Source: Haloplanus salinus (GTDB taxonomy: Archaea; Halobacteriota; Halobacteria; Halobacteriales; Haloferacaceae). Taken from it: a DNA stretch of 64,000 nucleotides. Below are positions 6,865 to 17,351 of the stretch, one piece after another. The DNA is taken from positions 1,116,001-1,180,000 of the forward strand of contig NZ_QPHM01000001.1 in the NCBI RefSeq assembly GCF_003336245.1, written 5' to 3'. A program made the translations under genes and the position numbers. The notes beneath the pieces were generated by a model. It did no database searches and was not told the DNA's origin. It saw only the letters and a list, made by a program, of their open reading frames with translations. Position 1 is the first letter of the stretch. Every line of letters starts with the position of its first letter.

Positions 6865-7626
6865 TCAGTCCGCGGTCGTCTCGCTGGCCGACGGGGTCGG
6901 TGCGGAGTCGCCGCCGACGATGGCACGACTGCGCAGGAGGATGAACCCGAAGCCGATCTTGGCGGCCAGGTCGAGGATCATGAACAGCAGCGTCTCGCCG
7001 TACAGGCCCACGAGGCCCAGTCCTTCCGTTCCGACGAGCCACGCGACGGGGTACACTGCCCAGGCGATCAGGATGATGTTTCGCAACGTGTTGAACGTCG
7101 ACTGCGTGTCCGCATCGGCGTCCGAGGCGGCCTCGCCGACCACGACGACGAGGTAGTACAGCACGAACAGCATCGCGATGGTGCTGATCGTCCAGAAGGC
7201 GTACCGAGCAACCGGGACCTTCATCAGGGTCGCCGCCAGCCCCGTGACGATCATGAACGCGTCGATGGTGATCAGAGACGCCAGGTCGCGGTTGCTAGCG
7301 CCGGCCAGAAGGCCGATGTCGAGCAACAGTAGCGGGGTCGTGAACAGCCAGTCAGCGTACCGAGCCCAGTAGACGTCGATGACTCGGCCGTTGATCAGCT
7401 CGACCTCCGTCAGTCCGAACCCGAAGAACATCGAGAGGTACGACGCCGCCGCGATCCCCGCGATGAGGATCGTGATGACGTAGAACTCCTCTTCTTCGGG
7501 GTCCTGGACGTCCCAGCCCTTGGCCATGAAGTAGACCATGCCCAGTAGCATTCCGATCGTTCCGAGGGCCAACCAGATGCCCTCTCCTTCAACTCCCAGA
7601 CTTGCTGCCTGCAGTGGTTGTAACAT
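6865..7626 (-). CDS. bop: Bacteriorhodopsin, light-driven proton pump (copy 1)
   Basis: A seven-helix retinal protein that exports H+ in light. Using the start at 7626 (MLQPLQ, 253 aa), the key residues are Arg89, Asp92 (BR Asp85 acceptor), Asp103 (Asp96 donor), Asp122 (Asp115), Glu201 and Glu211 (proton release) and Lys223 (Schiff base). The core ARYADWLFTTPLLLLD is classic BR. Another ATG lies 12 nt upstream (7638). I prefer 7626 because the AT box at 7652-7661 then falls 26-35 nt upstream, and the activator element is about 49 nt from the ATG, the same as for the second opsin. A retained Asp96 donor argues against a sensory rhodopsin or chloride pump. Confidence 0.96.
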   Translation of the reverse strand: MLQPLQAASLGVEGEGIWLALGTIGMLLGMVYFMAKGWDVQDPEEEEFYVITILIAGIAAASYLSMFFGFGLTEVELINGRVIDVYWARYADWLFTTPLLLLDIGLLAGASNRDLASLITIDAFMIVTGLAATLMKVPVARYAFWTISTIAMLFVLYYLVVVVGEAASDADADTQSTFNTLRNIILIAWAVYPVAWLVGTEGLGLVGLYGETLLFMILDLAAKIGFGFILLRSRAIVGGDSAPTPSASETTAD

Positions 7627-7651
7627 CGACGTTAGCATGTGATTGCTGTTT

Positions 7652-7680
7652 GTATATATTTAGCGGGCCAAACTAGTTGT
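7652..7680 (-). promoter_or_regulatory. bop1 promoter with Bat-type upstream activator
   Basis: On the minus strand ACACAACTAGTTTGG (palindromic core ACTAGT at 7672-7677) precedes an AT box TAAATATATA (7652-7661). The core matches what I recall of the Halobacterium bop upstream activating sequence, which has ACTAGTT at its heart and is the target of Bat. The same core sits upstream of the second opsin at an equal distance to its ATG. Confidence 0.75.
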
Positions 7681-7801
7681 GTACCTCCGCTCTATCGCCC
7701 GCCGGGCGGGTGATTATGTACTGTTTGGCGGACATGTAGGTGGGCAATGAGAGGACTGTTGTACCAATAGATTGAACCAAAACAAACGCATAGACGATAT
7801 C

Positions 7802-8125
7802 ATGGCAGACGAAACTGAAGTAACCGAGGCGGATGAGGAGTCGGTCACCGCGGAGTCCGCGAAAACCGAAAACGAAGCCGTACTCGATATGGAAGCCCTC
7901 GACGAAACGGAGGACGTAGACGAACTTCGCGAACTCATCGAAAAGCAGCAAGCGCAGATCGAGGAGCTAAACGGCCTCCTTCTCGACCTCTCGACGCGGG
8001 TGGCCGACGGCAATTCGATGGGAGTCTGCCCGGACTGTCACGGAGCAGTTATGAAGTTCAATCCCTGGTTTCGCTCCGCAAAGATCAAATGTACGGACTG
8101 CGGCCGCGTCTTTCACGAGTACTGA
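7802..8125 (+). CDS. Acidic coiled-coil zinc-ribbon protein divergent from bop (Brz-like candidate)
   Basis: The ATG at 7802 gives 107 residues. An upstream in-frame TTG at 7772 is unlikely. Residues 1-60 are highly acidic with a short coiled coil (LRELIEKQQAQIEELNGLLL). The C-terminus is a four-cysteine zinc ribbon, CPDC then about 20 residues then CTDCGRVFHEY. It shares a roughly 175-bp intergenic region with bop1, transcribed the other way. Halobacterium has Brz, a small zinc-finger activator of bop. Position and finger suggest an analogous role here, but this is inference and the protein is longer. Confidence 0.7.
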   Translation: MADETEVTEADEESVTAESAKTENEAVLDMEALDETEDVDELRELIEKQQAQIEELNGLLLDLSTRVADGNSMGVCPDCHGAVMKFNPWFRSAKIKCTDCGRVFHEY

Positions 8126-8795: not shown

Positions 8796-9491
8796 TCACC
8801 TGCCGCCGTCGGCCGCAAGCTCGATGTCGCCGGACTCCTCACTGCCGTCTTCGGCCTCCTTCTCCTCGGCTTCCTTTTTGGCCTTGATCTTCTTCAGGCG
8901 GAAGATTTCCTCGCGCTCCTGCTCCTCTAGCTTCTGCTCGATATACTCCTTGTTCTCGTGGAGGTCGGGCAGGAGCTTGAACTCCAGCGCGTTGACGCGG
9001 CGCTTGGTCGTCTCGATCTCGGTCAGCATCTTCTTCATCGCCGTCTCCACCTCGGCGGCGAGGATGATGGATTCGAGGAGCTCCTCGTAGGCGTCGGCGG
9101 CCTCGTCGATGCGGCCCGACGATCCGAGCAGGCCGTAGCCGCGCTGATCGAGGCTCTTCCTGACGCGGGAGGACTCGATCTGTGGGACGACCACGCCCAT
9201 GATGTTCTTCGACTGGGTGGTGATCTCGGGGTGTTCTTTCAGCGCAGCGGCGGCGCCGCGGACGGCAACGTCGCCTTCCATCGCCCGCGCCATGTTGATC
9301 TTGCGCTGTGCCGTCCGGTAGTTCTCGTCTAAGTCCGCGCGGATGTCCTGGGCCTGATCCAGGATGTCCATGAACTCCATGATGAGGCCGTCGCGTTTCT
9401 GTTCCAGCGTGTCGTGACCCCGCTCGGAGAGTTCGATCCGATCCTCGATCGCCATGAGGTTCTTGCGGGTGGGTTTGACGTCCTCGGCCAT
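8796..9491 (-). CDS. atpD: A-type ATP synthase subunit D (central stalk)
   Basis: This is the rotor shaft of the archaeal A1Ao ATP synthase, which links the rotating c-ring to the A3B3 head. The long helical hairpin is typical: [20 protein letters not shown] at the N-terminus and [18 protein letters not shown] near residue 165, followed by an acidic/lysine-rich C-terminal tail. The ATG at 9491 is chosen over a GTG 6 nt upstream. Its usual neighbour atpB is 4.7 kb away; bat, bop2, crtY and brp lie between them on the same strand. It may therefore need its own promoter or read-through from brp (34 nt upstream). Confidence 0.95.
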
Positions 9492-9525
9492 TGACACAGC
9501 GTTGTGGACCGAGCCGCTTATGCTT

Positions 9526-10584
9526 TTACTGTTTCCGCCCCAAGCCGGCGCCTTCGACCCGATCCATCCACGTCACGATCGCGACGTGTGGAAGAGTCAA
9601 CACGGCGATGAAGACCAGATACAGTGCGGCCAGGACGCGGGGATCGGTGTCGACGCCAGCGACGACGCCGACCGCGACGAGCGTGACGACGGAGACGGCT
9701 GTCAGCGGCGCCGCGTCCCGTCCCGTCCGGGCCAGCGCCGCGAGCGTGCCCCGCGCTCGAAACGCCGCGCGGGCGCCGTCGTCGACACCCATCAACCGGC
9801 CGACGTGTCGGAGCGAGTGCCACACGCAGAAGTAGACGCCGATGGCGACCAGGGGCGGAACGACGAGGAAGTACGCCCACAGGAGGAGCGTCTCGGCGGC
9901 GTCGAGTCGCCACGCCGCATCGTCGCGATAGCCCGCCGCGAGCGTCGCGACGGTCACACCCGCGAAGGCCGCTCCGAGCACCACGCGCGTGTCGGGAGCG
10001 ACGAGCCACACCGCACCGAGGTCCCGGCCGAACAGCGCCACCCACGCGTCGACGACGTCCCGGTATCGCTCCGGATACCGCAGGAGCGGCACGAGCATCG
10101 GAAGCCCCCCGCGGACGACCACCGTCCCCACGCGCACGCCCACGCCGCGGAGGTGAGAACTCCCCAGTGCGTCCAGCGCGTACAGGTCACCCTGTCCCCA
10201 GTGGAGCCACGTCAGCGCGACGAAAAGCACCGCGGACGCGACGGGCGCCACGATCCACAGCGCGGCGTAGACGCCGCCGATCACGAGGTACGCGAGGCCG
10301 ACGGCGGCCATCGACCGGGGCGTCGTCGGCCGGCCGGCAGCGCGGGTCGGCGCGAGGTGGTCGACGGCGCCGTGTGGGAGGCCGAAGAGGAGCAGGCTCG
10401 CCGCGAGGGGGAGGTAACGAAGCCACGGCGGGATAGGGAGGGGACCGACCGCGGTGGCGACGAGCGACCCTCCGCCGACGGCGGCGACGGCGACCCACGC
10501 GGGACGACAGCCGACCGCACGGACGAGCGCCGCGAGTTCGGCGTCGTGGCCGGGGGCGGCCGTCCCGCGTGCGGTCCGGGTCAT
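9526..10584 (-). CDS. brp: Beta-carotene 15,15'-dioxygenase, Brp/Blh family
   Basis: An integral-membrane iron enzyme that cleaves beta-carotene into two retinals, the opsin chromophore. The 352 residues contain the family's histidine motifs: [11 protein letters not shown] near 67, [10 protein letters not shown] near 125, [10 protein letters not shown] near 255 and [12 protein letters not shown] near the C-terminus. About eight membrane helices alternate with these. The start codon directly abuts the stop of the lycopene cyclase gene (10584/10585), so the two are one translational unit. It sits 34 nt upstream of atpD. Halobacterium Brp is encoded near bop and bat, so the link to opsin production is well supported. 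Confidence 0.93.
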
Positions 10585-11400
10585 CTACGGCGCGTCTGTC
10601 TCGGGGTCCACGCCGGCCGGGACGCGGGCGTCCGTCGCCTCCCGACCGTCCGTCCACCACCGGTCCAACACCCACCGGTAGAGGATCAGTCCCTGCACGA
10701 CGAAGAGGTTCGTCACGAGGAAGAAGGTGGCCTCCTCGACCGGAAGTCCGGCGACGGTGAGGCCGGTCGTGTACCGCTCCGAGAGGATCCAGATGCCGTA
10801 TTCGATGGCGATGCGGTCGGCGACGCAGAGATACGTCGTGGGGACGAGCATCCCGAACGCGACGAGCCGTCGCCGTGCCCAGAGCTGTGGCGCGCCGACC
10901 GCCCACTGGAGCGCCAGCACCGGCGCCGCCCAGGCCGTGATCGCCCCGAGGTAGAACGTGGCGTCGCTGCCGAGCATCGTCCAGCCGACGACGCCGAGGA
11001 CGACGGCAAGGCCCGTCGCGACGACCCGCAACAGAACCGGCCGCGCGACCGACGGCCACTCGGTCGGGAGGGAGAGATGCGAGAGCCAGAGCGCCGTCAA
11101 CCACGGTTGAACGAGGATGAAGAGATACTCCTCGATCGGCGCGTGCCAGAGGGTCACGAGCGTGCTTCCGTCGCCGTACCACCAGACGCCGGTAGCGATG
11201 AGGTAGTTGTCCCACGGCGTCGTGTACACCAGCGCGATGACGGTGATGATGGCGACGCCCGTCCAGTACGTCCGGCCGGTGCCGAGCGGACGGACGGCGG
11301 CGCTCATCTGCGCACGGCTCACGAACGCCGTCGCGACCATGAGCATCACGGCCGGGAGCAGGAACGCCAGGTGAAACTGCAGGTATGTAGGGCCGGTCAT
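10585..11400 (-). CDS. crtY: Lycopene beta-cyclase, fused CrtYc-CrtYd type
   Basis: A 271-residue membrane enzyme that closes the beta-ionone rings of lycopene to give beta-carotene, the substrate of Brp. It contains two copies of the heterodimeric-cyclase domain in tandem. The first has TTPWDNYLI and APIEEYLFI (about residues 60-95), the second LPVEEATFFLVTNLF near 225. The paired P-x-E-E motifs are diagnostic. About seven helices are predicted. The gene abuts brp. The 195-bp gap from bop2 holds an AT-rich box (CATATTTAG, about 11453-11464, minus strand) but no ACTAGT element, so light control may come through read-through from bop2 or by another factor. Confidence 0.93.
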   Translation of the reverse strand: MTGPTYLQFHLAFLLPAVMLMVATAFVSRAQMSAAVRPLGTGRTYWTGVAIITVIALVYTTPWDNYLIATGVWWYGDGSTLVTLWHAPIEEYLFILVQPWLTALWLSHLSLPTEWPSVARPVLLRVVATGLAVVLGVVGWTMLGSDATFYLGAITAWAAPVLALQWAVGAPQLWARRRLVAFGMLVPTTYLCVADRIAIEYGIWILSERYTTGLTVAGLPVEEATFFLVTNLFVVQGLILYRWVLDRWWTDGREATDARVPAGVDPETDAP

Positions 11401-11595
11401 AGGTGTCTTCGTATCGGGCCGCCGGGTAGTCGTACGGCTGTACGCCGGTTCCCCCTAAATATGCTCGGATCGTAGTATCACGAACGGGAACGTCGGCGTC
11501 CCGTCCGGCGTCGGTGGAACGACCCGCCTCACGGGGGCGTCGTCAGGGGGTCGCGCCGGACCGTTTCGGCGGACGCCTCCGGACGGAACTCCCTC

Positions 11596-12345
11596 TCAGT
11601 CGTCGGCCGGTTCGGCCGCGGCCGACGCCGAGCCCGCCGCGTCGAGCACCTCGCGGCTCGACAGCAGGATGATACCGAACCCGACTTTCGCGACCAGGTC
11701 CAGCACCATGAAGCCGGCCGTCTCGATGTACAGCGAGATGACGCCGAGCCCCTCGGTGCCGACGACCCACCACACGGGGTAGACCAGCCAGACGACCACG
11801 ATCAGGGTCCGGAGCGTGCTGAACGTCGACGCCGCGTCACCCGAGAGCCGGCTGGCCTTCTCGTCGAGCGAGCCGTACAGCATGTACAGCAGGACGAGCA
11901 GGAAGCCGGTCGAGACGCCCCACCAGGCCAGCCGCCGCGCGCCCTCAGTGAGCACGCCGGGGCCGGCCGAGAGCGTCGCCACAACGCCCGTACCGATCAT
12001 GAGCATGTCCAGACCGACGAGCGACGACAGCTCGTTCCGGCTCGCCCCGGCCAGCAGGCCGAGGTCGATCAACAGCAACGGCGTGGTGAAAAACCAGTCC
12101 GTGTACCGTGCCCAGTAGATCGGTAGCTCCTCGCCACCGACCGTCACCATCGTTAAACCGAAGCCAAGCGCCATCGCGAGATAGTTCACGAACGCGATGG
12201 CGGTGATGAATATGGTGACGATGTAGAACTCCTGTCGCCGTTCGTTCGTTTCGCCCCAGCCCCTGGCGATGAAGTACAGCATCCCCAGGAACATGCCGAG
12301 CGTGCCGATCCAAAGCCAAATGCCCTCGCTACCAGGTTGTGGCAT
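11596..12345 (-). CDS. bop: Bacteriorhodopsin, light-driven proton pump (copy 2)
   Basis: A second seven-helix opsin (249 aa) distinct from copy 1. It starts [17 protein letters not shown] at the ATG at 12345. Asp83 (BR Asp85), Asp94 (Asp96), Asp113 (Asp115), Glu198 and Glu208 (release) and Lys220 (Schiff base) are all present, so a proton pump is predicted. The retinal-pocket segment [16 protein letters not shown] differs from copy 1 at two sites (Thr for Ala beside the acceptor Asp, Phe for Leu), which may shift colour or kinetics. No transducer gene is adjacent, which argues against a sensory role. It lies 56 bp after bat on the same strand and has its own activator element in that gap. 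Confidence 0.94.
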
Positions 12346-12370
12346 AATGCAGGCAATATTTGACGGTCAC

Positions 12371-12402
12371 TTAGCCTAAGCGGCGTCCCCAACTAGTTCG
12401 GT
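12371..12402 (-). promoter_or_regulatory. bop2 promoter with Bat-type upstream activator
   Basis: On the minus strand CCGAACTAGTTGGGG (core ACTAGT at 12392-12397) lies at the very end of bat. A weak TATA-like CTTAGGCTAA at 12371-12380 is 26-35 nt before the ATG at 12345. The core-to-ATG distance (about 50 nt) equals that of bop1 if bop1 starts at 7626. Confidence 0.7.
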
Positions 12403-14060
12403 TATCGGTCCAGAATCGCCCCGATGAGTTTCCGCTGGGCCGCACGCAGGTGTTCGTGGAACGTCGAGCGACAGACGTCCATCGCCTCGGCGAGGTCGTC
12501 GCCGGTCGCCTCGTGTGGCCACTCGAAGAACCCGCCGGTGTACGCCCGCACTAGCGCCGCATACTGCCGATCGGTCAACTCCTCGCGTAGGCGTGAGACG
12601 AACTCCTGTCGCGTCTCTGTCCGCTCGCTGCTCTGACGGTAGCTGGCAAGCTCGCTGCTCTCGAATCGCTCCATCACCCCGTCCGCCAGCGACCGTGCCA
12701 GCGACTCACGGGCCACCTCGACGGTGAACCGTGCGATGCTGTGCTCGGCCGTCACGTCGCGGAGCTCTGCCCCGTGATCGGCGAGCAGCGTCCGGAGCTC
12801 CGTGTCCGCGACCGACAGTTCGACGAGACAGCCCTCGTCGCCCTCGAAGAGTACGGCGTGTAGCTCGATACCCGTTTCGGCGGCCGCTGCCCGCACCGAC
12901 TCGCCAGTCCCGTCCGACAGTTCGAAGAGGCTCGTCGGCCGGTCGCGGTCGGCGACGCTCCCCCGGTAAGCCAGTCGACAGTCGAGTTCCTTGGCCAGGT
13001 CGACCAGCGGGTGGCTCATCACGGTGAACTGTAGTTCCACCGTATCCTCGCCCCGCAGCGTCCGCTGGCTTTCGAGCGTGTTGATCCCCGTCGCGACTGC
13101 TCGTCCGAGCGCCGTCAGGACGACACGCTCGTGTTCGTCGAACTCGCTGTTGTTCTCGGCGTACACCCCCACGACACCGTACACCGCGTCCCCATAGTGG
13201 AGCGGGACCGCCGCCACGGGCACCGTCCCGTCGGCACACGAACGGATCGTCACGTCACGATCGGTGATCGACCGCGCGACGGCCGAACCGAGGACGCCGT
13301 CGCCGCCTTCCTCGACGGCAATCGACTCCGGGGCGGTTCCGTCGTCGCTCCCGGCCCACCCCGCGGCCGCCTGTCGGACCACCGCCTCCGACGCGGGCTC
13401 GTAGCTTCCGATCCACGCCCCCGCGTACGTCCCCGCCAAGCCGTCGACGACGCGCCGCTCGAGTTCCGACCGCGAGCGGGCCTCGGCGACCCCGCTCGTG
13501 ACCTCCGCGACGACGCCATTGAGTCGCTCCAGCAGGTGCTCCTGTGCCGCCCGCTCCCGTTCGATCCGCGCCGCGCGGCGGGCCGCCGCCCGCTCCGCTC
13601 GCTTCCGTCGCGTCACGTCCTGTTGAAAGCCGACGTAGTACGCCACGTCCCCATCCTCGTCGTGGAGCGGCGCGATGGTCACCTCGTTCCAGAACATCTC
13701 GCCGTCACGGCGGTAGTTCCGGAGTTCGACGGTCGTCGCCGCCCCGTTCTCGATGGCTGCACGCATCTCCGCGACGGGCTCCGCGCGGGTCGTCTCGCCC
13801 TGCAGGAACCGACAGTTGCGCCCGACAGCGTACTCCGGCGGATATCCAGTAATGCGCTCGAACGCAGCGTTCGCGTACACGAGCGGCATATCCGGCTCCG
13901 TCGCGTCCGCGACGGTGATCCCCACCGGCGCCTCGTCCATCGCCCGCGTCTTCAGCGCCTCGTCGACGGCGTCGGCACTGGCCGCAGTTACCATCCCATC
14001 CGTCCCGTCCATGGCAGCAACGGGACGGTCGTCGGCCGTTGAATCTGACCCCCTCGACAT
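12402..14060 (-). CDS. bat: Bat: LOV/PAS-GAF-HTH activator of opsin genes
   Basis: This 552-residue regulator has a PAS domain at about residues 36-155, a GAF domain at about 185-330 and a C-terminal bat-type HTH (LTDRQYAALVRAYTGGFFEW onward, about 490-550). The order matches Halobacterium Bat, which activates bop, brp and crtB1 through the bop UAS. The PAS domain carries the LOV signature GRNCRFLQ (photoactive Cys83) and the flavin-contact residues in NYRRDG, FWN and GFQQDVT, so blue-light sensing via FMN is likely. The gene is 110 bp downstream of atpB and 56 bp upstream of bop2. An AT-rich box (TTTTTAAAC, minus strand, near 14114-14123) may drive it. Confidence 0.94.
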   Translation of the reverse strand: MSRGSDSTADDRPVAAMDGTDGMVTAASADAVDEALKTRAMDEAPVGITVADATEPDMPLVYANAAFERITGYPPEYAVGRNCRFLQGETTRAEPVAEMRAAIENGAATTVELRNYRRDGEMFWNEVTIAPLHDEDGDVAYYVGFQQDVTRRKRAERAAARRAARIERERAAQEHLLERLNGVVAEVTSGVAEARSRSELERRVVDGLAGTYAGAWIGSYEPASEAVVRQAAAGWAGSDDGTAPESIAVEEGGDGVLGSAVARSITDRDVTIRSCADGTVPVAAVPLHYGDAVYGVVGVYAENNSEFDEHERVVLTALGRAVATGINTLESQRTLRGEDTVELQFTVMSHPLVDLAKELDCRLAYRGSVADRDRPTSLFELSDGTGESVRAAAAETGIELHAVLFEGDEGCLVELSVADTELRTLLADHGAELRDVTAEHSIARFTVEVARESLARSLADGVMERFESSELASYRQSSERTETRQEFVSRLREELTDRQYAALVRAYTGGFFEWPHEATGDDLAEAMDVCRSTFHEHLRAAQRKLIGAILDR

Positions 14061-14170
14061 AGGCTTGTAGTGGGGATACGGGGTAAAATTATTACTGATG
14101 CCCGATAACCCAGTTTAAAAACGTAACCGAGCGCACGATTTTTTGCCGCGGTGCGAAGATTCCGACGCGA

Positions 14171-15580
14171 TCAGTCCGCGGTCGCTTCCTCTTCGACCGC
14201 GTCCTCGCGGTAGTAGTCCGCGATGAACTCCTCGTCGATGCGGTTGAGCTCCTCTCTCGGGAGGTTCGAGAGGAGGTCCCAGCCGATGTCGAGGGTCTCG
14301 TCGATGTCGCGGTTCGTGTCGAAGCCCTGGTCGACGAACTCGCTCTCGAACTCGTCGGCGAAGTCGAGATACTTGTTGTCCCGGTCGCTCAGGGCCTCGC
14401 GACCGACGATGTTCACCAGGTCGCGCAGGTCCTCACCCTCCGCGTACGCGGCGTACATCTGGTCGGACACGTCGGCGTGATCCTCGCGGGTGAGCCCTTC
14501 GCCGATCCCGTCGTCCATCAGGCGCGACAGGGACGGGAGCACGTTGACCGGGGGCTGGACGCCCTGACTGTTGAGGTCGCGGTCGACGTAGATCTGCCCC
14601 TCGGTGATGTAGCCCGTCAGGTCCGGGATCGGGTGCGTGTCGTCGTCGCCGGGCATCGTCAGGATCGGAATCTGGGTGACGGAGCCGTCCCGTCCCTGGA
14701 TCCGACCGGCGCGCTCGTAGAGCTGGGCCAGGTCGGTGTACATGTAGCCGGGGTAGCCACGGCGACCCGGCACCTCCTCGCGTGCGGCGCCGATCTCGCG
14801 GAGCGCCTCGCAGTAGTTGGTCATGTCCGTCAGGATCACCAGCACGTGGTAATCCTTCTCGAACGCCAGATACTCCGCGGTCGTCAGTGCCATCCGCGGG
14901 GTGACCGTCCGCTCGACGGCGGGGTCGTCCGCGAGGTTCATGAAGACGACGGAGCGTTCCAACGCGCCGGTGCGCTCGAAGTCGTCCATGAACTCGTTGG
15001 CCTCCTCGGCCGTGATACCCATCGCGCCGAAGATGACGGCGAACTCTGAGCCGTCACCCTCTTCCTCTTCCTCGGGCACGCTCGCCTGTCGCGCAATCTG
15101 GAGCGCAAGCTCGTTGTGCGGCAGGCCGGAGCCGGAGAAGATGGGGAGCTTCTGCCCGCGGACGAGCGTGTTCATGCCGTCGATGGCGGAGACGCCGGTC
15201 TGGATGAACTCCTCGGGGTACTCGCGGGCGTAGGGGTTGATCGCCGCGCCGACGATGTCCTCGCGCTTCTCGGGTTCGATTGCCGGGCCGTCGTCGATGG
15301 GTTCGCCGGATCCCGAGAGGACGCGACCGAGGAGGTCCTCGGTCAGCTTCATCTTCAGCGTCTCGCCCTGGAAGCGGACGAACGCGTTCTTGTCGATACC
15401 CGAGGTGCCTTCGAACACCTGGATGGCGACGAGGCCGTCCTCGGATTCGAGCACCTGCCCCCGGCGGATCTCGCCGTCGGCGGTCTCGATTTCCACCATC
15501 TCGTCGTAGCCGATGGGTTTGTCGACCTCGGCGAACACCAGCGGGCCGCTGATCTCGGTGATCGTCTTGTACTCTTTCAT
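14171..15580 (-). CDS. atpB: A-type ATP synthase subunit B
   Basis: The non-catalytic subunit of the A3B3 hexamer, 469 residues, normal length. It starts [16 protein letters not shown] with the N-terminal beta-barrel. The place of the Walker A reads [10 protein letters not shown], as expected for the B subunit, which binds but does not hydrolyse nucleotide. The C-terminus is the usual helical domain ending in an acidic tail. One nucleotide separates it from atpA. In the order I know from other haloarchaea atpD follows directly. Here the opsin module follows instead. Confidence 0.97.
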
Positions 15581-15581
15581 C

Positions 15582-17351
15582 TCAGTACAGCTCCCGAATC
15601 TGCTCGGTGATTTCGTCTTTCAGTTCGTCCATGTACGCCTCGTAGTCCTCCTGGACGCCGATGCGGTTGATGCGCGGCAGGGCGTCGACGGCCGTGATCT
15701 CCTCGACGGGGACGCCGGCTTCGAGCGCGTCGAACGCCTCGTCGTTGAACGTCTTGATCGTCGTGAGGATGAGGTACGTCTTGTCGGGTTCGCAGTAGGT
15801 GTCGACGTCGTGGAACGCGTTCTGCTGGAGCCACGCCTCGCGGATGTACCGTGCGACTTCGAGGGTGAGCTGCTGGTCCTCCGGCAGCGCGTCCTTGCCG
15901 ACGAGCTGGACGATTTCCTGCAGTTCGCCCTCCTCGTCGAGGGTGTCGACCGCCCACTGTCGAACCTCCGGGAAGTCCTCCGCGACGTTGTCCACGAACC
16001 ACGGGTCGAGCTGATCCCGGTAGAGGGAGTAGGACTCGTTCCAGTTGATCGAGGGGAAGTGCCGGCGCTCGGCCAGGTCGGCGTCGAGCGCCCAGAAACA
16101 TTTGACGATGCGGAGCGTGTTCTGGGTCACCGGCTCGGAGAAGTCGCCGCCGGGCGGCGACACGGCCCCGACGACCGAAATCGAGCCTTCGGTGTCGTTG
16201 ATGTTCTCGAAGTAGCCCGCACGCTCGTAGAACTGGGAGAGCCGCGCCGCGAGGTAGGCCGGGTAGCCCTCCTCGCCGGGCATCTCCTCCAGGCGCGAGG
16301 AAATCTCGCGCATGGCCTCGGCCCACCGCGAGGTGGAGTCGGCCATCAGCGCCACGTCGTACCCCATGTCGCGGTAGTACTCCGCGATGGTGATGCCGGT
16401 GTAGACGCAGGATTCACGCGCCGCAACGGGCATGTTCGACGTGTTGGCGATGAGCGTCGTCCGGGCCATCAGCGGGTTCCCGGTCTGCGGGTCGGGCAGT
16501 TCCGGGAAGTCCTCGATGACCTCCGTCATCTCGTTGCCGCGCTCGCCACAGCCGATGTAGACGACGATGTCCGCGTCGGACCACTTCGCCAACTGCTGTT
16601 GGGTGACGGTCTTCCCCGAGCCGAAGGGACCCGGAATCGCCGCCGTGCCGCCCTTGGCGATGGGGAACAGGCCGTCCTGCACCCGCTGGCCGGTCAGGAG
16701 CGGCTCCGTGGGCGTCTGCTTCTCGCCGGCGGGGCGTGCCTCGCGGACCGGCCACTCCTGGCGCATCCGGATCTCCTCGCCGTTGTCGAGTTCGGCCACC
16801 GTCTCGTCGACGGTGAACTCGCCGTCTTCGACGGAGACGACTTCCGCCGTCTCGCCCTCGTCGAGGGCGTCCGGCGGAACGAGCACCTTGTGCTCGATGG
16901 TCACCGTCTCGGGGACGGTGCCGATGATGTCGCCGCGGCCCACCTCGTCGCCCTCCTCTGCCTCCGGGGTGAACTCCCACTCCTTTTCGAGGTCGATGCC
17001 CGGTGCGTCGACCCCACGGTCGAGGAACGCGCTGTTCATCTTGCTCTCGAGCACGTCGAGCGGGCGCTGGACGCCGTCGTAGATGGTGTCCAGCAGTCCC
17101 GGCCCGAGGTCGACGGTCAGCGGGTTGCCCGTGTTCTCGACGGGTTCGCCCGGACCGACGCCCGAGGTCTCTTCGTACACTTGGATGGTCGTCACGTCGC
17201 CCTCGATCTCGATGACTTCGCCCATCAGCCCTTCGTCGCCCACGTAGACGACGTCGTTCATTCGGGCGTCGAGGTCGACGGCGGTCACGACCGGACCACT
17301 CACGCTGTCGATGATGCCGTCCTCTCGGACGGTCGTGTCTGCCTGACTCAT
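15582..17351 (-). CDS. atpA: A-type ATP synthase subunit A (catalytic)
   Basis: The catalytic subunit, 589 residues. It has the N-terminal barrel, the bulge domain specific to A/V-type subunits, Walker [14 protein letters not shown] near residue 236, and Walker [15 protein letters not shown] near 330. No intein is inserted at the P-loop, although inteins occur there in some archaea. It makes ATP from ADP and phosphate, driven by the proton-powered rotor. The start at 17351 is 1 nt after the atpF stop, so the genes are tightly coupled. Confidence 0.98.

Follow-up and report, generated by a model that had tools for sequence, protein, structure and literature searches.

A Bat paralogue with a Cys-bearing LOV signature encoded beside an opsin in the ATP synthase operon of Haloplanus salinus

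A stretch of 64,000 nucleotides of the Haloplanus salinus genome (contig NZ_QPHM01000001.1, hereafter the window) was analysed, in which an entire rhodopsin and retinal-synthesis cassette (bat, opsin, crtY, brp) was found inside the A-type ATP synthase operon, flanked by atpB and atpD (8796-17351). The gene order on the minus strand was atpA, atpB, bat, opsin 1, crtY, brp and atpD. In particular, bat (12402..14060) was preceded by atpB, encoding subunit B of the A-type ATP synthase (14171..15580), and directly followed by opsin 1, of the bacteriorhodopsin family (11596..12345); further downstream were a crtY-like lycopene cyclase gene of the retinal pathway (10585..11400), a brp/blh-like beta-carotene 15,15'-dioxygenase gene for retinal synthesis (9526..10584) and, past the cassette, atpD, encoding subunit D (8796..9497), all on the minus strand. 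Moreover, a second opsin of the bacteriorhodopsin family (opsin 2, 6865..7638, minus strand) formed a pair, spanning 6865-8125, with a divergent gene for a 117-aa Zn-ribbon protein (7772-8125, plus strand); homologues of both genes were likewise divergent near the classical bop clusters of L094, L096, L100, L102 and L108. An Asp85/Asp96-type proton-pump motif was recognized by inspection in both opsins of the window. The cassette was not taken as a new discovery, since the arrangement bat/bop/crtY/blh between atpB and atpD has already been reported in other haloarchaea by Verma 2020 (PMC7755889).

The bat gene starts with ATG and encodes a protein of 552 aa, in which the Pfam domains PAS_9, GAF_2, BAT and HTH_10 were all over the cut-off and appeared in the Bat-family order PAS-GAF-BAT-HTH_10; the linkage of the gene to opsin and retinal genes with a bop-type UAS is likewise that of the Bat family. 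The layout comprised LOV (aa ~36-150), a linker helix (150-193), GAF (196-326), BAT (339-488) and HTH_10 (495-546), and an N-terminal receiver domain was looked for in this protein and not found. Within the LOV domain (13604..13955, minus strand, aa 36-152), the motifs GRNCRFLQ at aa 80, bearing Cys83, NYRRDG at 115, FWN at 123 and GFQQDVT at 144 lay in the translation exactly where the initial annotation of this DNA had placed them. Counting from Cys83, which is the adduct-type Cys of a GXNCRFLQ motif, the six classical FMN contacts were R84 (+1), Q87 (+4), R100 (+17), N115 (+32), N125 (+42) and Q146 (+63), a spacing equal to that of phototropin LOV domains, whose counterparts in phy3-LOV2 are C966, R967, Q970, R983, N998, N1008 and Q1029. 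R100, the second phosphate-binding Arg, had been absent from the residues listed initially. Furthermore, the leading PDB matches found by phmmer were LOV proteins, namely 6hmj (E-value 1.5e-34), 9vf7 (9.6e-32), phototropin 8qi8 (1.4e-29) and YtvA 2pr5 (7.5e-29). In the AlphaFold model (mean pLDDT 81.5, with the first LOV strand poorly resolved), the LOV domain could be superposed on phot LOV1 of Chlamydomonas (1.7 Å over 105 columns, 51% identity), and a helix of 44 residues (150-193) joined LOV to GAF, as expected for a signalling helix. The claim of a full LOV photoreceptor signature was thus borne out by Cys83 and its six contacts at LOV spacing, together with structure matches led by LOV proteins and a LOV-like fold; a chance PAS motif was ruled out by those matches, the contact residues and the model superposition.

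The UAS of bop reportedly follows the pattern ACCNNACTAGTTNG (work of Baliga and DasSarma). An exact match (ACCGAACTAGTTGG, 12389..12402, minus strand) was found at −57 to −44 from the opsin 1 ATG, starting on the final base of the bat stop codon, and it was the only exact match to ACCNNACTAGTTNG in the 3.5-Mb genome. A UAS-like site with one mismatch (ACACAACTAGTTTG, 7669..7682, minus strand) was located upstream of opsin 2, and neither atpB nor atpD of the window was preceded by a match. Control of the neighbouring pumps, also proposed in the initial annotation, is therefore supported by the promoters of both opsins. A genome-wide UAS regulon was considered and rejected, since the loose pattern (≤1 mismatch) occurred 16 times in this genome vs. 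30 for the reversed control, and only sites positioned at promoters were consequently used. Exact sites numbered 0 to 1 in each of five Haloferax-type genomes.

Of 20 opsins lying directly downstream of a Cys-type bat, 18 carried a UAS with up to three mismatches, located by script between −52 and −62, and the number rose to 19 when L045 was included by hand, where AACTAGTT stood at the right place and the opsin start had been mis-set by a broken reading frame. This opsin (G095:C16:483363-484037), next to an intact Cys-bearing Bat, carries an in-frame TGA, owing perhaps to gene disruption or to an error in sequencing. In contrast, the UAS appeared in none of the 11 ATP-operon opsins lying directly after atpB without bat between them (11 genomes, two genera), a difference with a Fisher P-value of 9e-7, which shared ancestry makes look stronger than it is. 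Eight of the 11 retained the UAS flanks (ACC...TTTTGGGTA) at −57 and had lost the core; the ACTAG core was lost in L193-L200, belonging to genus g24, as if the regulation had gone with bat. Such core-less sites would fit, if these genomes are Haloarcula, the constitutive expression cited for the Haloarcula marismortui opsin at the ATP-operon position (PMC7755889). For the opsin of Halobacterium salinarum DSM 3754, no match with up to two mismatches was found in the ~80 bases between the contig start and the ATG. Moreover, the UAS abutted or overlapped the 3′ end of bat in the window (12389-12404) and in L042, L047, L050, L051, L053, L060, L061, L066-L068, L090, L097, L106, L107 and L144, and the TAG stop codon of bat doubled as the TAG of the ACTAGT core in about 16 genomes. 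This shared TAG also occurred in the opsin-less Haloferax-type loci L050 and L051, whose bat stop codon, ahead of atpD, still lies within ACTAGT, and in the Pro-type L106 and L107 described below, an observation suggestive of a single, ancient DNA specificity common to them.

The Bat proteins were then compared across a sample of 145 genomes of the class, with 80 loci read in detail and named genomes added. According to gene coordinates, a Bat is encoded between atpB and atpD in at least 16 of these genomes. The LOV Cys was present in all 15 of those checked, which also kept R100 except in L044 and L053, and no opsin was found in the gap in 5 of the 16 genomes. Four Haloferax-type loci (L050-L052 and L136) held a Cys-LOV Bat between atpB and atpD without an opsin; in Haloferax marinum (L136), for example, the order was atpB, bat with the Cys, and atpD. 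HVO_0318 is a possible orthologue in Haloferax volcanii, and a literature search on this locus tag returned no papers. Furthermore, many Cys-bearing Bats of other families sat far from any opsin. The Bat of H. salinarum DSM 3754 (L124) reads GANHRFLQ, with His at the site of the LOV Cys, and the Bats of Halorubrum bop clusters (g2) read GRNPRFLQ, with Pro. A second full-length Bat of the H. salinus genome (L002/L062, C1:855085-856629), located by another opsin, brp and a Zn-ribbon gene, also has His. Elsewhere in this genome (L003, L004, L007 and L012), three more proteins with a full GRNCRFLQ LOV domain and one LOV-like frame broken by two TGA codons were observed. Among the full-length sequences, in which some genomes appear twice, R100 was kept in 0 of 14 His types and 0 of 10 Pro types, the single Ala and Leu types both kept it, and the full contact set was kept in 58 of 73 Cys types. 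The Cys, R84, Q87, N115, N125 and Q146 were conserved across distant families.

An unrooted tree of the Bat proteins was built without the LOV columns. The window protein fell in a starred clade of 12 proteins, all with the Cys, and the state of this residue required three changes, with two main Cys-less lineages. One of them was the His clade, containing the H. salinarum Bat and the second Bat of this genome and neighboured by a Cys-bearing Halorhabdus-type group, and the other was the Pro clade, which includes Halorubrum. Orthology of the window protein with the H. salinarum Bat was not supported, as L124 groups with L062 in a separate clade. Since LOV domains in general carry the Cys, its loss is the simpler reading of the tree. 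The presence of the Cys in all 15 ATP-operon Bats checked and throughout the clade of 12, with the surrounding protein at 56-64% identity, argues that this residue is under selection. The joint loss of the Cys and R100, with no more than two or three independent changes, falls short of statistical significance and is taken as a pattern; it agrees with the flavin range of the Cys-less Halorubrum BAT-LOV*, which reconstitutes with FAD, FMN or riboflavin (PMC4682037). Bat is usually discussed as a redox or oxygen sensor, and the suggestion that it would instead be a LOV protein, as made initially, stands for the signature of the window Bat and fails for the classical Bat, which is a different paralogue. 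With His in both the H. salinarum Bat and the second Bat here, the window finding does not turn the classical Bat into a LOV photoreceptor, and the generalization that all Bats are LOV photoreceptors was rejected on the His and Pro forms.

The residues, predicted fold, gene order and UAS observed, with their conservation, are best accommodated by the reading that the window Bat is a blue-light-sensing paralogue with a canonical LOV domain that activates the adjacent rhodopsin through the UAS, which we consider probable on the sequence evidence. The LOV domain would most likely bind FMN, and blue light would produce the adduct between Cys83 and C4a of the flavin. The resulting change would travel along the extended helix (aa 150-193), pass the GAF/BAT region and reach HTH_10, which in this paralogue would bind the AACTAGTT UAS and presumably activate, rather than repress, the opsin promoter just 3′ of bat. 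Opsin 2 is probably activated as well, by means of its near-identical UAS, and an additional signal may enter through the GAF domain. The other Bat encoded in this genome, with His and placed by another bop, would act as a redox-type sensor, so that H. salinus seems to possess a pair of Bat regulators of different photochemistry, predicted to sense light differently; the His-type Bat might also bind the same UAS.

Two alternatives were deemed less likely than this reading. It is unlikely that the domain binds flavin and signals mainly by its redox state, as a redox or oxygen sensor in which the Cys only tunes the response and light is secondary. Such behaviour would resemble the Cys-less Halorubrum BAT-LOV*, which shifts conformation upon flavin reduction (PMC4682037), and the oxygen inducibility mediated by the classical Bat (PMC2253796, PMC3184054); however, the Bats of that literature are devoid of the Cys and, almost without exception, of R100, whereas the lineage of the window keeps both (R100 barring L044 and L053), and so strict a retention of the Cys is hard to explain without adduct chemistry. 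Rather improbable is also a main target under blue light in the ATP synthase operon or in other genes, with the opsin cassette merely inserted beside bat. The Cys-bearing Bats of Haloferax-type genomes without an operon opsin, the bat without bop in strain pws11, whose role was called unclear (PMC7755889), and the many Cys-bearing Bats far from any opsin are in line with such a target, and opsin control cannot be the sole possible role, given that the gene persists in Haloferax-type genomes whose operon has no opsin. Nevertheless, the UAS sits at the opsin promoter, is lacking both at ATP-operon opsins that have no bat beside them and upstream of atpB and atpD in the window, and is scarce in its exact form in the five Haloferax-type genomes.

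Much the least probable is a degenerate LOV domain with a merely structural role, showing the full signature and no photocycle, for instance through quenching of the flavin excited state. Aromatic residues near the flavin do quench it in archaeal LOV domains (PMC4682037, PMC12202551), but ALovD-1 photocycles despite such residues (PMC12202551), and the Cys and five contacts are conserved across distant families. Returning to the blue-light-sensing Bat, an extended reading is evenly balanced in our judgement: haloarchaea would run a Cys-LOV Bat, often in the ATP synthase operon, coupling blue light to rhodopsin, together with a redox-type Bat devoid of the Cys at the classical bop locus, the latter having arisen as LOV ancestors repeatedly lost the Cys along with the second phosphate Arg.

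Whether Bat senses light directly is a question decades old, and the Bat molecules studied so far lack the LOV Cys. Opsin-linked Bats with an intact LOV make it testable by one point mutation, and members of Haloferax, a standard host for archaeal genetics, carry the Cys-Bat gene with no opsin in the operon. Moreover, the UAS, found or missing in step with bat, provides a natural comparison of rhodopsins in the same position with vs. without an adjacent light regulator. In the literature searched, covering few subscription journals, no mention was found of ATP-operon Bats as those with an intact LOV, of one genome with both kinds of Bat or of a UAS going with the adjacent bat.

Regarding the known systems, direct light sensing by Bat has been suggested and not definitively established (PMC4682037), and light induction of bop in H. 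salinarum requires Bat, Brz and Brb (PMC3184054). Canonical LOV, GAF and HTH domains, including a Bat-like arrangement, were catalogued in archaeal LOV-HTH proteins by Losi and colleagues 2014 (PMC4844311), who already state that the H. salinarum Bat lacks the LOV Cys and, in the sections available, make no link to ATP-operon opsins or the UAS. A photocycle has been demonstrated, at salt concentrations reaching 3 M, for ALovD-1, a canonical haloarchaeal LOV from a Halonotius-like source (PMC12202551), a text in which a search for Bat, bop, HTH and opsin gave no mention. The loci of Verma 2020 show the gene arrangement of the window, including bat without bop; the sections available hold nothing on LOV residues, the split between Cys-bearing and Cys-less forms or the UAS, and regard the insertion as random (PMC7755889). 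The Halorubrum hochstenium BAT-LOV* (Yee 2015, PMC4682037) is, like the window domain, a LOV-like domain of the Bat family, and it binds flavin, but it has Pro for the Cys, poor photoreduction, a receiver domain and a redox response. Finally, the H. salinarum Bat shares with the window Bat the PAS-GAF-BAT-HTH_10 order, the opsin linkage and the UAS-type promoter, whereas in place of the LOV Cys and of R100 it has His and Trp, respectively, along with a weak receiver match at the N-terminus, as opposed to Cys, Arg and no receiver in the window Bat.
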